From: Anaerolineae bacterium
GTDB taxonomy: Bacteria > Chloroflexota > Anaerolineae > B4-G1
Assembly: GCA_026418995.1 (NCBI GenBank)
Contig: JAOAAG010000037.1
Location: 1 to 37,340 of the forward strand
Direction: 5' to 3'
DNA length: 37,340 nucleotides
Shown: positions 11,302 to 23,844 of the stretch, piece by piece
How positions within the stretch are numbered: position 1 is the stretch's first letter
Layout: each line of letters starts with the position of its first letter
Notes under the pieces: model-generated
Seen by the model: the letters and a program-made list of their open reading frames with translations, nothing else
What the model was told of the DNA's origin: nothing
Database searches by the model: none
Position numbers and translations under genes: made by a program

Positions 11302-12993
11302 ATGGATCATCGGGGCGGGCAGACCATACCTCCTCCCCAGGACGAGGAATGGGTCCTTACGAGCACGTTGCCTGAAGGGGCCCTTTTCGTCAGCCCGGAT
11401 GGCATCTTATACCAGGTGGTGATGGCGAAGGGCGGCGGTTTCCGCAAGGCGGAGCCATGGCCATGGCTCCCATATGGCTGGAGCATTGACGCGGAGCGAC
11501 CGAACGCCGTGGCGCTGGTGCCGGATTCGCCGCTGGCGCGCAACTACCCGGTGGTGGCCAGGGGCAAACCGCTTCCCAACGTTAGCCTGGAGGAACTGTC
11601 CCCTCCCGGTGGCCGCCCGATCCATTATATCTTTCCCACCGAGCAACTGGCCAGGCTAGCCGCCCAACTGGATGAGACGCTGGCCCATACCCCGAACTTG
11701 AAGGCTTATCGGACTGCTGGACGGTGGGTGCTCGCATTGTCGGGTAAAGAGGTGATGCTGTTGCGCGTCTACCACTATCTGGAGGATAGCGCCGGCACGC
11801 CGATGGACCTGGAGGCGCGTTTTGCTGGAGAGCGTATCGAAGCCCTGCCCTGCACTCAGGGGCCGTCCTACTGGCGATACATCCCGGGGTGGAGGGATAA
11901 AGTAACTGGTGAGATACAGGAAAGCGAAGTGAGCGTGTCGCCACCGCTGGTGGAGGAGCGCGTCTCACCAGCGGTGATCGAAAGAAGGGAGAGTATGTCT
12001 GCAATGATCCTGGCGGTTGATATTGGTTACGGCTACACCAAGGGCATCGCGCCCAACGGTCTGCGCTTTTCCTTCCCCAGCGTGGTGGGCGCTGCTGAGG
12101 AGATTAACTTCAGCACGGATCTGATACGGGGGGGAGAGGAGCGGCCGGTCAGGTACGATAACTGGCGTTTCTTTTACGGTCAGCAGGCCGTGCTCCAGAG
12201 CCGCATCCAGTCCGCTATCTTTGACCGCAGCCGTGTGCAGGACCACACTTTCAAGCTGCTCTTCGTGGCCGCGCTGGTCGAGCTGGCCAAACACATGCCC
12301 GAGGTGCGACACCTCAACGTGGTGACCGGCCTCCCGGTTGACTTTTTCGCCGACCGCTCTGAGGTCATCCGCTCCTTTGAGGGGACCTACCGCATCACGG
12401 CTGACCGTGCAATCGAGCTCACGGTGGACGCGGTCTTCGTCGCGCCTCAGCCATTCGGATCGCTATTCCGCGAATTGCTAAACGAGAACGGTAAAATCGT
12501 CAACACCGAGATCGAGCGCGGGCGCATCGGAGTGATTGACATAGGCTCCTACACCACCGATTTCATCGTCTCCGATGAATTGCGCTACGTGCAACGGCTC
12601 AGCGGCTCGGCCCGCGTCGGCTGGAGCAAAGTGGTCGCTCAGGTGCAGCAGGCGCTCGATGACAGGTATATGCTGGAACTGATGCCGCACGAGGTGGATC
12701 GAGCGATCCAGCTCGGCGAAGTGCGTGTGCGCGGGGAGCCGGTGCCGATCGGGCCGCTGGTCGAGCCTGCCATCAACGATATCAGGACGGCGATTGTCGC
12801 GCGGGCGCGCGATCTGTGGGGCACCGCCGCCAGCCTGGACGTTATCCTGGTTACCGGTGGGGGTGGCCCGCGCCTGTACGACGCGATACGGGAGACATAC
12901 CCGCATGCCCGGCTGCTTGAGAATGCTTTCTGGGCCAATGCCGAGGGCTTTATGCGTTTTGCCCAGCGTCCCGCTACGTTCCAGAGGCAATAG
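11302..12993 (+). CDS. ParM/StbA-type actin-like ATPase with unknown N-terminal domain
   Basis: A 563-residue fusion. Residues 1 to about 195 form a globular domain I do not recognise (LPEGALFVSPDGILYQVV, YHYLEDSAG), followed by a charged linker to about 231. From Met232 on it is a complete bacterial actin of the ParM/Alp class: phosphate-1 loop AVDIGYGYTK (Asp240), TGLPVDFFADR, phosphate-2 loop VIDIGSYTTDF (Asp413) and the adenosine motif VTGGGG (519-522), then NAFWANAEGF near the end. ParM relatives polymerise with ATP to push DNA apart. GGAGGAG precedes the ATG at 11302. A second ATG at 11995 (Met232) has AAGG 6 nt upstream and sits exactly at the actin domain start, so a short form by internal initiation is possible. 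A ParR-like small gene follows. Confidence 0.88.
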   Translation: MDHRGGQTIPPPQDEEWVLTSTLPEGALFVSPDGILYQVVMAKGGGFRKAEPWPWLPYGWSIDAERPNAVALVPDSPLARNYPVVARGKPLPNVSLEELSPPGGRPIHYIFPTEQLARLAAQLDETLAHTPNLKAYRTAGRWVLALSGKEVMLLRVYHYLEDSAGTPMDLEARFAGERIEALPCTQGPSYWRYIPGWRDKVTGEIQESEVSVSPPLVEERVSPAVIERRESMSAMILAVDIGYGYTKGIAPNGLRFSFPSVVGAAEEINFSTDLIRGGEERPVRYDNWRFFYGQQAVLQSRIQSAIFDRSRVQDHTFKLLFVAALVELAKHMPEVRHLNVVTGLPVDFFADRSEVIRSFEGTYRITADRAIELTVDAVFVAPQPFGSLFRELLNENGKIVNTEIERGRIGVIDIGSYTTDFIVSDELRYVQRLSGSARVGWSKVVAQVQQALDDRYMLELMPHEVDRAIQLGEVRVRGEPVPIGPLVEPAINDIRTAIVARARDLWGTAASLDVILVTGGGGPRLYDAIRETYPHARLLENAFWANAEGFMRFAQRPATFQRQ

Positions 12994-12996
12994 CTA

Positions 12997-13030
12997 AGGT
13001 GACGGTCACTGCCCTAAGTGACCGTCACCT
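12997..13030. repeat. Perfect inverted repeat, candidate centromere/operator
   Basis: Arms AGGTGACGGTCACT (12997-13010) and AGTGACCGTCACCT (13017-13030) are perfect complements around the loop GCCCTA. Each arm is itself a palindrome, GTGAC-S-GTCAC, so there are two 11-bp sites 20 bp apart. It begins 3 nt after the actin-like stop and ends 16 nt before the ATG of the small gene. No T-tract follows, so it is better read as a binding site, for instance of the small RHH-like protein, than as a terminator. Confidence 0.85.
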
Positions 13031-13046
13031 GGTGGTGGGGATTACG

Positions 13047-13337
13047 ATGCGGTTCACCTTCCGTCTGGACTTCAATCCCTATAACGCCGAACACCGGCGG
13101 GCTGCCGAGTGGCTGGCTGCTCAACCGGACCCGACCGAGGCGGTGGTGCGGCTGCTGCGCGCTGCCGGCGAGGGCGAGCGACGCTTACGACATTGGGAGG
13201 AGCTGGCTACACAGCTTGCCCAGGAACTGCACCAGGTGCGTATACAGATGAGCGCGCGTTCCCCGGAGCAGGACGCCCACCCTGTCACCAGAGAAGACCC
13301 GGAATCGGCTCACAGACTGGATACGCTATTCAGGTGA
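13047..13337 (+). CDS. Small ribbon-helix-helix-like protein, probable ParR-type partner
   Basis: A 96-residue protein with no firm family match. The start at ATG 13047 (GGGG 6 nt upstream) is preferred to the GTG at 12999, which lies inside the inverted repeat. The N-terminus MRFTFRLDFN reads as a beta strand, followed by the helices HRRAAEWLAAQ and PTEAVVRLLRAA: the layout of RHH DNA-binding adaptors that accompany ParM-like actins. Residues about 38-70 are a charged, coiled-coil-like helix, and the last 25 are polar and probably disordered, as in ParR tails that contact filaments. Position right after the actin-like gene and its inverted repeat supports the pairing. DNA binding and segregation are inference. 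Confidence 0.65.
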   Translation: MRFTFRLDFNPYNAEHRRAAEWLAAQPDPTEAVVRLLRAAGEGERRLRHWEELATQLAQELHQVRIQMSARSPEQDAHPVTREDPESAHRLDTLFR

Positions 13338-13341
13338 AAAC

Positions 13342-13367
13342 AAAGCACCCGCTCAGGCGGGTGCTTT
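13342..13367. terminator. Bidirectional intrinsic terminator
   Basis: AAAGCACCCGC, loop TCAG, GCGGGTGCTTT: a perfect 11-bp stem flanked by A-rich and T-containing edges. It lies 4 nt after the ParR-like stop and before the converging HAD gene, so it can serve both strands. Confidence 0.85.
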
Positions 13368-13396
13368 GGACATCGCGGACGCCGTGAGGCCCGTAG

Positions 13397-14125
13397 TCAA
13401 TACTTCCTCAGCCACTCCCACAGCCCGGCCAGATCCCCTTTCCCCACCAGTGTGATGCTGCCAAGGTTGGGGGCATTCTGGTCGGTCACCCAATAACCGG
13501 GTATGCCCACCGATGCTGCCTGGGCTATATCCCACTCCCAGCTATCGCCCACCATCAGGCACTCCTCTGGCTGCCGCCCCAGATATGCCAGTATCTCGCG
13601 ATAGTAGGCCGGGTGGGCTTTGGTGGCGTGCATATTCTCGTATGAGGTGATCAGCGTATAATCAAACTCGCTCACCGGCACCCCGGCCCACTCCAGCCGC
13701 TGCTCGATAGCGGAGCGCGGGAAGAGCGGATTGGTGGCAATCACCACCTGTAGCCCCCGGCCAAAGGCCCATTCGACCAGGCTACGCGCTTCCGGTATGG
13801 GGCGGGTCAGAGCACGCAGCCTGGGAAATTCCTCGGCATAGAAGCGCTCGAAGATAGGTTGCAGTTCCTCCTGGCTATATCCCACCTCTGGATAGAATAC
13901 GGCGGCGAACACCTCGGCGTTGGTGGGACCGCTGCCGTCGTTAGCGTCCATCGCGTAGCTAGCGCGCATCAGGGCAGCGATCAGCCGCTCAGGGGGTATC
14001 AGATCGGCCACCCAGCGGGTGAGCGCCTGGAAGTACATCGGCACGAACCTTTCCATGGAGTTGACCAGCAGCGTATCGTCCAGATCGAACAGCATAGCCC
14101 TGAGTGTGTCTTGTTGCCTGTCCAT
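13397..14125 (-). CDS. HAD-superfamily hydrolase (phosphatase-like)
   Basis: A 242-residue cytoplasmic HAD hydrolase. Motif I is LFDLDDTLL (Asp14 nucleophile, Asp16), motif II is the Thr of VIATNP, motif III the Lys of HATKAHP, and motif IV GDSWEWD. An all-helical cap of type C1 lies between motifs I and II (about 25-110). These enzymes usually hydrolyse small phosphomonoesters; the substrate is not predictable. The SD before ATG 14125 is weak (GAGG, 8 nt). It lies 63 nt downstream of the beta-helix/DUF11 gene on the same strand and may share its transcript, though no functional link is evident. Confidence 0.88.
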   Translation of the reverse strand: MDRQQDTLRAMLFDLDDTLLVNSMERFVPMYFQALTRWVADLIPPERLIAALMRASYAMDANDGSGPTNAEVFAAVFYPEVGYSQEELQPIFERFYAEEFPRLRALTRPIPEARSLVEWAFGRGLQVVIATNPLFPRSAIEQRLEWAGVPVSEFDYTLITSYENMHATKAHPAYYREILAYLGRQPEECLMVGDSWEWDIAQAASVGIPGYWVTDQNAPNLGSITLVGKGDLAGLWEWLRKY

Positions 14126-20586: not shown

Positions 20587-23500
20587 ATGCCCGACGATTT
20601 TCTCTTCCGCGCTGACCTGGAAGACCTGGACCCCTTCATAGCTGACCTCATTCGCTGGGAGCAGGAGCGCCAGGCCCGTAAACTCATCCTCATCCCCTCC
20701 GAGTCCTACGCCCCCAGGGCCGTCCGGCAGGCGCTTGGCTCTGTGTTTCAGAATGTTTATGCCGAAGGCTACCCGCCTCTGAGGATGACCCGCGACCCTG
20801 AGGAGCGGCTGCGGGACGTGGCCTGGCAACTGGCCTTCTACCGCCGCTATGCCGACCGCCGTTTCTACAAAGGCGTGGACTATGTGCATCTGGTGGAGTG
20901 CCTGGCCCAGCGTCGCTGCGCTGCACTCTTTGCCCACGACGACGTCCGCCCGGAGCACATCTTTGTTAACGTCCAGCCCCTCTCCGGCGCCGCGGCCAAC
21001 CTGGCCATCTACCAGGCTCTCATGAGACCCGGCGATGTCCTGATGGGGATGGACCTCTTCCAGGGCGGCCACCTGACCCACGGCTCCGAGTTCAATATCT
21101 CCGGGAAATGGTACCGCCGGGTCTCCTATGGCGTAGACGCGAAGACTGAGCGGCTGGACTACGACGCCATCCGGGCGCTGGCCCGTCAACACCGGCCGCG
21201 CGTCATCGTCGCCGGATACACCTCCTACCCTTGGGCGCCCGACTGGCGTGCCTTTCGCGCCATCGCCGACGAGGTTGGAGCCTATCTCGTCGCCGACATC
21301 GCGCATACTGCCGGGATGGCCGCTGCCGGGGCCTATCCCAACCCTGTCGGCATCGCCCATGTTACCGTCTTTACCACCCACAAGACCATCTGCGGGCCGC
21401 GCGGTGCCTGCATCCTCACCACCGACGAGGCACTGGCTCAGGCGATCGATATGGCCGTCTTCCCCGGTGAGCAAGGCGGGCCGCATGTCAACAAGTTTGC
21501 GGCGATGGCCGTGGCTTTTGGACTGGCCCGGACAGAGCACTTCCGGCGGCTTCAGCACCAGATTGTTGCCAACGCCAGGGCCCTTGCAGAGGCCCTTCAG
21601 AAGCGTGGGCTTCGCCTGGCCTACGGCGGCACGGATACCCACTTGCTCGTGGTGGATCTGAAGTCGGTGAGCGACCGCGAGGGGGGCGACCGCAAGGGGG
21701 GCGACCGCGAGGGGGGCGACCGCAAGGGGGGCGACCGCAAGGGGGGCGACCGCAAGGGTCGCCCCTACGTCCTGTGGGGGGAACCGGCGGCCCGTATCCT
21801 GGACCTGGCTGGCATCGTTGTCAATAAGAACACCATCCCAGGGGACACCCAGACCGCATTAGCGACGGGCATCCGCATGGGCACCCCGTGGGTCACCCAG
21901 AGGGGGTTGAACGAGGAAGATATGGAGACCCTGGCAGACCTCATCGCCCGACTCCTGCGCGCCATCCGGCCCTTCGCCTATAACGGCCTGGTGGGCACGC
22001 TCCCGCGCGGAAAGGTGGAGCTGGACGTTCTGGAAGAGGTGCGGGCGGGAGTAGCGAAGCTGGCAGAAAAGGCCGGGATTGACTTTGCATACGCCCCCAC
22101 CGGCTACCCTCATTTCTACTCTTTCGGGCCTGCCGGGAAGAATACCGCCCTGCGCGTGACCGGCTGGCGGGCCCGGCAATTTATCCAGCAGGTGGTTACT
22201 GCCAACATCGCCGATCTGGAGGCGGGCCAGACCAGAGCCGCTCACATGCTGGATCGCCACGGCAGCCTCATCGCCAAGGTAGTCATCCAGCGGGAGACGC
22301 CCGACGAGTGGGGCCGGGACCGCTACCTTATCGTCCCCACAGCGAATGGCAGCCGTGTCGCTGCCTGGCTGCGCGCTCTCTCCGACGGTTACGTCCTCTT
22401 TGACGAAGCCGACATCTACCGCAAGATTGAAGGGCCGGTGGTGGTAGAGGAAGCCCCGGACATCCCCGCCCTCTCGCTCGTCGGAGACGCAGAACTAGAC
22501 CTCACCAAACCCTACTTCATCGGCCAGTCCGCCTTCACGGAACGCGCAACACGCAATACGCAATACCCTGAATGGCGCTGGGAGGAACGACAGTCCCCCA
22601 TCAAGCGCACCCCCCTCTACGAGACCCACAAGCGGCTAGGCGCGAAGATGGTCCCCTTCGCTGGGTGGGAAATGCCGGTCTGGTACACCTCCGTGGGAGA
22701 GGAACACCGCGCGGTGCGGGAGACGGCAGGCCTTTTTGACGTGGCCCACATGGGCGTCTTTGAGGTCGCTGGCCCCCATGCTACCGTCTTCCTGGACACC
22801 GTCTGCTCCAACTACGTCGCCTGGCTGGAGGACGGGCAGTCCCTCTACGGCTACCTCCTGGACCCCGACGGCAACGTGATAGATGATGTGATGATTTACC
22901 GCCGCCGGGCTGATCTCTACCTGATGGTGGTCAACGCCGCCAACGAGGAGAAGGACTGGGACTGGCTGAACGCGGTAAACGAGCAACGGGTGATGATTGA
23001 CCGAACCCGCCCGTGGGTGCGGGTGGAGGCGCAGGCGACCTTGCGCAACCTGAAGGATCCGTCAGCGGGGGAGTTGCAGCAGCGGGACCTGGCCCTGCAG
23101 GGCCCGGCGTCGCTCCCGACACTGCTGGCGCTGGCCGATGGAGACCGGTTCCGCACCGCACTGGCCCGTCTGCGCCGCACGGACCTGCTGGAGGGAGCCC
23201 TGGCGGGGATTCCCGTCGTCGTCGCCCGCACCGGCTACACCGGCGAGGAGTGGGGCTACGAGATCTTCGTCCACCCTGACCAGATGCCCACACTCTGGGA
23301 CAAAATTCTGGAGGCTGGAGAGCGGTACGGGGTCAAACCGGCAGGGCTGGGCGCGCGGGATTCCACCCGCACCGAGACGGGACTCCCCCTCTACGGCCAC
23401 GAACTGGCGGGCCCTTTCAACATCTCGCCGCTGGAGGCGGGCTTCGCCGGGTATGTCAAGTACCACAAGCCCTTCTTCATCGGACGGGACGCGCTCCTGG

Positions 23501-23844
23501 CCCAGGAGGAGACGAGGGAGCGGGAGGTGCTCCGCTTCCGCGTCGCCGAAAAGGGGGTCCGTCGCCCACAGACGGGCGACCCGGTGGTCAATCGCAGGGG
23601 GCAACTGATCGGCCATGTCACCAGTTGCTCCATTGACGCCGAAGGGTATCTGGTGGGGATGGCGATTGTGAAGCAGCAGTACCACGTGCCGGGAACCCAG
23701 ATTGCCATCTTCCCGCTGGGCGGGAAGTCGTTGGAGGAAGCGGCGGGGGCCGACCGGGCTGTCCTACCGGTGGAGGCGACGGTGCTCACCCGTTTCCGGG
23801 GGCGGGTAATGGAGGCTCAGGTCTTACGGACGGCGGAGGACTGA
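20587..23844 (+). CDS. glyA-gcvT: Bifunctional serine hydroxymethyltransferase / glycine cleavage T-protein fusion
   Basis: A 1085-residue fusion in one-carbon metabolism. Residues 1-490 are SHMT (serine plus THF to glycine plus methylene-THF): [15 protein letters not shown] and the PLP lysine Lys266 in [12 protein letters not shown] (most relatives have HKTLRGPRG). About 515-650 resembles a degenerate folate-binding GcvT/YgfZ N-domain ([20 protein letters not shown]). Residues 670-1085 are a complete aminomethyltransferase ([56 protein letters not shown]). Two repeat-derived insertions keep the frame: a GDRKG tract at about 361-394, in the loop after HLLVVDL, and RATRNTQY near 652-660 before the GcvT part. 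Fusion would couple glycine production and cleavage in the cytoplasm. Lipoyl GcvH and GcvP are not in the window. Confidence 0.95.
21671..21768 (+). repeat. GC-rich 15-bp tandem repeat ending in a palindrome, inside glyA
   Basis: Five tandem 15-bp units GCGACCGCRAGGGGG (R alternates between units) and a sixth that ends in GGTCGCCCCTAC. The last unit forms a perfect 9-bp hairpin, GGGGCGACC (21743-21751), loop GCAAG, GGTCGCCCC (21757-21765). Translation gives [11 protein letters not shown] repeats and then GRPY. Because the unit is 15 bp, the reading frame is kept. Confidence 0.92.
22544..22566 (+). repeat. RNTQY-type short repeat inside gcvT linker
   Basis: GCGCAACACGCAATACGC followed by AATAC, in frame and encoding RATRNTQY in the linker between the SHMT/GcvT-like part and the GcvT part. 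It is the reverse complement of the leader repeats at 16927 and 20386. Confidence 0.75.

Follow-up and report, generated by a model that had tools for sequence, protein, structure and literature searches.

The FcmBC pair of Nostoc punctiforme is a chromosomal, ParM-derived system of plasmid-partition origin that sets cell shape (PMC12645912), so repurposing of a ParM-derived pair does happen. Chromosomal ParMs that are still able to polymerise are also known, and the cParMs of Desulfitobacterium and other bacteria have a ParR-like gene nearby (PMC12270681). A further comparison, by analogy only, is provided by IncC (ParA) of plasmid RK2, a partition NTPase for which alternative start codons give forms with or without an N-terminal part (PMC2666795), although this protein is a Walker ATPase and not an actin.

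A hot-spring Chloroflexota bacterium carries a plasmid-type actin gene and its usual partner gene on the chromosome. Like the FcmB and FcmC genes, the locus is chromosomal and encodes an actin derived from ParM with a ParR-like partner after it, but its actin is fused through a linker to an additional N-terminal domain (hereafter the N-domain; Table 1). No N-terminal domain is reported for FcmB in the available part of that work, in which membrane attachment depends on FcmC (PMC12645912); the words ‘N-terminal’, ‘fusion’ and ‘fused’ are absent from the text of the cParM paper (PMC12270681); and a literature search found no paper on such N-domain–actin fusions. Our tentative preference, held with slightly less than even confidence, is that a chromosomal ParM/ParR pair has been repurposed and that the N-domain gives its filaments a new, non-plasmid partner, as in FcmBC but by another route. 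If so, the locus would join cyanobacterial FcmBC as another example of a plasmid-partition actin put to use in cell biology, and its distinctive route would be that the actin itself acquired a domain for cargo or anchoring.

The fused actin

The fused gene is a single uninterrupted ORF of 563 codons. Residues 233-556 form the actin core (Pfam ALP_N, 1.4e-23; MreB-like_C, 1e-12), and the actin domain matches a partition protein in PHROGs (3.6e-51). The nearest solved actin by sequence is pCBH ParM (PDB 6ixw / 6izr), which is matched over the full length of the actin (E 1e-23; 2.5e-23 in a separate search) and which differs in being plasmid-borne and in lacking an N-terminal domain. Similarity is weak to Dh-cParM1 (E 8e-9) and to CorM (PDB 9rmi; E 6.7e-7), a ParM-superfamily actin that was compared by sequence and PDB name alone and on which the literature search found no paper. 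The original prediction had called the protein a ParM-class actin with Asp240, Asp413 and GGGG519-522 intact, and the Pfam and pCBH ParM matches agree with it; all of these motifs are in place and are invariant in an alignment of three fusions, so the ParM/ALP-class actin-like NTPase of a ParMRC system, with its nucleotide-binding motifs, is present. Because the source genome also encodes MreB (E 8e-139), the fused protein is an additional actin.

It had also been claimed that the N-terminal domain could not be placed, and database comparison bore this out: searches of Pfam, PHROGs, NCBIfam and PDB sequences gave no match to residues ~16-197 of the fused protein, which hold a domain of ~185 residues.

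Table 1. Features of the fused actin locus. Positions are those of the window, the whole stretch of 37,340 nucleotides that was analysed.
Feature	Position	Strand	Remarks
Fused gene: N-domain, linker and ParM-type actin	11302..12993	+	563 aa, stop included; homologues intact in G005 and G007
N-domain	11347..11895	+	Family unnamed in databases; occurs in another Anaerolineae order as a protein of its own
Linker	11896..11994	+	Length and sequence vary among genera (alignment, codon-position identities)
Candidate internal Shine-Dalgarno (SD) GAAAGAAGGGAGAGT	11980..11994	+	Before ATG 11995; counterparts in G005 and G007
ParM/ALP actin domain	11995..12993	+	ATG 11995 may also allow its separate translation
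Perfect inverted repeat	12997..13030	.	Arms of 14 nt, 12997-13010 / 13017-13030; copy of a palindrome dispersed genome-wide
ParR-like partner	13047..13337	+	96 aa; conserved C-terminal tail EDPESAHRLDTLF
Terminator-like hairpin CAAAGCACCCGC / GCGGGTGCTTTG	13341..13368	+	Directly 3' of the ParR-like gene

The partner gene, the inverted repeat and the genomic setting

The start of the partner gene is assigned to ATG 13047 and not to GTG 12999, because the latter falls within the inverted repeat and the equivalent ATG is the start in relatives. A small gene adjoins the actin in five genomes (the three fusions plus G002 and G046), and across the order most stand-alone actins with sufficient downstream sequence are also followed by one. 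Many of the small genes downstream of stand-alone actins show a recognisable RHH pattern, with Pfam RHH_1 matches in 5 of 22, and the window partner itself has no Pfam RHH match. A profile of the fusion-type partners aligns with that of the partners of stand-alone ParMs (hhalign probability 92.9, P 3.7e-7) over 83 columns that include the C-terminal tail. This tail reads E-(D/N)-P-E-S-A-x-R-L-D in the fusion-type partners, and many partners of stand-alone ParMs have E-(D/P)-P-(D/E)-x-A-x-x-L-D. The tail of ParR is the part that binds ParM, and the partner tail is similarly placed.

In an AF2 model of the partner (pLDDT 83), the N-terminus is extended and helices span residues 14-25, 29-70 and 85-94. 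The top Foldseek match of the model among 350,542 chains is pB171 ParR (2jd3), at a non-significant E of 2.9, and the partner profile weakly matches 2q2k, which we take to be pSK41 ParR, at an E of 0.41 that is likewise non-significant alone; both of these ParRs consist of an RHH plus a C-terminal tail, a layout that the partner probably shares. The earlier idea of a ParR-like RHH partner is therefore upheld as to its ParR-like character by adjacency, profile and tail, whereas the RHH fold, with which the helix pattern and the profile are compatible, is probable and has moderate support. This ParR-like protein may still bind DNA, a point against the repurposing that we prefer.

The repeat between the two genes had been described as a perfect inverted repeat that forms a built-in DNA site. 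It is indeed perfect, but it is dispersed genome-wide and thus supplies no cassette-specific site. The half-site GTGACNGTCAC occurs in 299 copies in this genome (G000) versus 10 for a reversed-pattern control, and the copies are mostly paired 17-19 bp apart, in a dispersed palindrome whose sequence approximates AGGTGACNGTCACTTC..GAAGTGACNGTCACCT. Its abundance is unlinked to the fusion: fusion-bearing G007 has 8 copies (control 8, so not enriched) and G005 has 21, and the half-site is abundant in G019 (155), where the actin is a stand-alone relative, and in G053 (76) and G029 (54), and scarce in the other relatives. The inverted repeat is absent from the sister fusion loci. For these reasons a role for the repeat as parC or operator was dropped. 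The window cassette has no tandem or direct repeats flanking its genes and no iteron array, and thus no repeat-type parC lies next to the genes. Taken by itself, the palindrome of two half-sites has the appearance of a short element, either REP-like or mobile.

A chromosomal location, as originally suggested, is indicated by the fused locus of G007, which lies 4-9 kb from genes for thymidylate kinase, TsaD and an SppA-type peptidase, and by the lack of any plasmid or phage record with 80% coverage of the fusion; plasmid carriage, a hallmark of ParMRC, is therefore not seen. The window protein scores 49 bits against the NCBIfam FcmB model NF052678, for which the cut-off is 300. Because the parC and the plasmid of ParMRC are lacking and the FcmB cut-off is not reached, the system is filed as a variant of chromosomal ParMR, with a chromosomal ParM and a neighbouring ParR-like gene, and as a member of neither the ParMRC nor the FcmB family.

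It is possible, though somewhat unlikely, that the locus is a working DNA partition system which has moved to the chromosome, or which is the sign of a chromosomal region or of an element that has integrated; in that case the ParR-like protein would bind some centromere, the actin would push DNA apart and the N-domain would be an accessory regulator. Both ParMRC protein parts are present in their usual order, polymerising chromosomal ParMs are on record (PMC12270681), and stand-alone relatives (L028, L050) sit in ParM - ParR-like - FtsK/SpoIIIE cassettes typical of mobile DNA, all of which would fit such a system. It is harder to reconcile with window genes that have no iteron array or cassette-specific site around them and whose sole long repeat without mismatches belongs to a dispersed element, with the housekeeping genes that surround the G007 locus, and with the fused cassettes themselves, beside which no FtsK gene was seen.

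FtsK/SpoIIIE-type neighbours are frequent in mobile cassettes. Among Anaerolineae relatives, the same compact ParM - ParR-like - FtsK/SpoIIIE layout was found by eye at L017 and L052, which together with L028 and L050 are probably mobile elements. Other neighbours were noted as well. Genes for L,D-transpeptidases (YkuD) lie beside the actin/ParR-like pair in genomes of two different families, G007 and G046 (L041:6637-7788, L045:648-2775), and a HAD-type hydrolase gene is convergent to the ParR-like gene in the window (13397-14125) and in G005 (L042:1146-1868), and not in G007. Elsewhere in the window, positions 20587-23844 hold a 1085-codon ORF that joins a serine hydroxymethyltransferase domain to an aminomethyltransferase (GCV_T) domain.

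Conservation of the fusion and a candidate internal start

When 60 related genomes were searched, fusions of the N-domain to a matching actin came to light in two further genera of the family (G005 and G007; the named records of the fusion-bearing relatives are DSDT01000048 and DUEK01000003). The three fusion proteins can be aligned end to end except in the linker, the length of which differs strongly, and they share 62-64% identity in the N-domain and 70-74% in the actin. Within the N-domain, codon-position identity is 73-82% at first and second positions and ~42% at third positions, with.73/.74/.42 among the values for the three positions, a pattern by which the N-domain is judged to be a constrained protein and the fusion to be under purifying selection in three genera. 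Since the fusion is intact in two other genera, and third positions are near-random where first and second positions are conserved, the sequence evidence indicates that it is genuine; an assembly or frameshift artefact was ruled out, and its recurrence in G005 and G007 dispels the concern, raised with the original prediction, that the N-domain and the actin might be separate genes in all relatives. A related actin and partner are also present in G002 and G046, on contigs that end inside the actin, short of the full-length 5' end. Phylogenetic analysis of 23 actins places the fusions, together with the G002 fragment, in a fully supported clade (100/100) that is separate from the order's stand-alone ParMs.

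All three fusions have kept an ATG at the ancestral actin start, and in each it is preceded by an SD-like stretch (AGAAGGGAG in the window, AAGGAGGT in G005 and AAAAGGAG in G007) around which the linker has otherwise diverged. The SD duplex dG at this internal start is -7.5 in the window, -12.4 in G005 and -11.3 in G007. Among 234 in-frame internal ATGs of neighbouring genes, used as a control, 9% reach -8 and ~2% reach -11.9; read off as quantiles, ~10% reach the window value, ~1-2% that of G005 and ~3% that of G007. The Arg pair encoded at the internal SD uses AGA/AGG, a choice made for 16% of Arg codons in the window and for 6% of those in G007. The full-length start of the window has a better SD than the internal one (-9.7 vs -7.5), those of G005 and G007 look weak, and a strong SD precedes the equivalent actin start of several stand-alone relatives. 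These features, for which the statistics are moderate, are suggestive of a retained internal start, by which one gene may make both a fused and a short actin.

The kept ancestral start and SD, together with the weak-looking full-length starts of G005 and G007, are also what might be expected of an accidental read-through fusion of neighbouring genes, in which there is no joint function and translation from the actin's own start supplies most of the actin. This is very unlikely, as the frame has stayed open in three genera at ~42% third-position identity despite a several-fold change in linker length, and a neutral fusion would often have acquired a stop. The variable linker also bears on the proposal that the N-domain is autoregulatory, sensing a ligand or partner and keeping the actin non-polymerising without tethering any cargo. 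A single soluble-looking domain on a long linker could act in this manner, and the retained internal start would yield an unregulated short form; such a switch is nevertheless quite improbable, because linker length varies too widely among genera to favour a precise intramolecular lock, and structure and database comparison recognised no ligand-binding fold in the N-domain.

The N-domain family and the proposed role of the filament

A class-wide search identified a stand-alone N-domain homologue in G266 (E 7e-25), and such proteins, 31-37% identical to the window N-domain, are found in 21 of the 154 genomes of that order, mostly in one GTDB family. The gene usually lies on the opposite strand, between genes for a secreted Ig-repeat protein and a G5/DUF348 protein, after which O-antigen ligase and NAD-epimerase genes follow; in several genomes rpoB (identified by eye) is upstream. 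G266, the sole carrier of a stand-alone N-domain that was checked, has no ALP_N actin. The occurrence of the N-domain without an ALP actin and near envelope-polysaccharide genes indicates that this domain exists independently and that its attachment to an actin took place in one lineage. No N-domain relatives were found in viral contigs. Weak profile matches in G204, G399 and G330 (E 4.5e-4 to 6e-4 per genome, with ~400 genomes) were read as chance; those in G204 and G399 are inside larger proteins, VanW-like by eye, and that in G330 has internal stops.

That the extra front domain is a separate protein elsewhere suggests that the filament now serves a role other than plasmid sorting. The earlier proposal that the N-domain tethers filaments to a non-plasmid cargo is plausible and draws circumstantial support from the stand-alone family, and it is put forward as a guess because a structure model of the N-domain (four-sequence input; pLDDT 60) gave no significant match (top hits at E 0.42 in Foldseek and Z 4.9 in VIA). 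We infer a link to the envelope from the gene neighbours of a homologue that is 31-37% identical and belongs to another order.

Under the repurposing that we tentatively prefer, the actin domain would polymerise, as its intact motifs predict, and the ParR-like protein would bind the filament via its conserved acidic C-terminal tail, as expected from the ParR family and from conservation of the tail. The N-domain would hang from the filament subunits on a flexible linker and couple the filaments to a non-plasmid, probably envelope-related, partner. Because the ancestral actin start is retained inside the fused gene, two products are suggested, and the fused and short actins could co-polymerise, with only part of the subunits carrying the N-domain. 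An unlikely but more far-reaching version is that a plasmid-partition actin became a chromosomal cytoskeleton via an envelope-linked adaptor, with the internal start giving subunits with and without the domain and so setting the density of a cargo receptor on the filament. If the repurposing is correct, an unnamed conserved Anaerolineae family beside envelope-polysaccharide genes would be linked to a cytoskeletal filament, making the role of this family testable.

In the order of G266, an unnamed ~220-residue family (L100-L112 and L040) is conserved across GTDB family f56, at a constant locus that also encodes envelope proteins and O-antigen ligases, and many members of the protein family have a C-terminal motif like DDTLPH.
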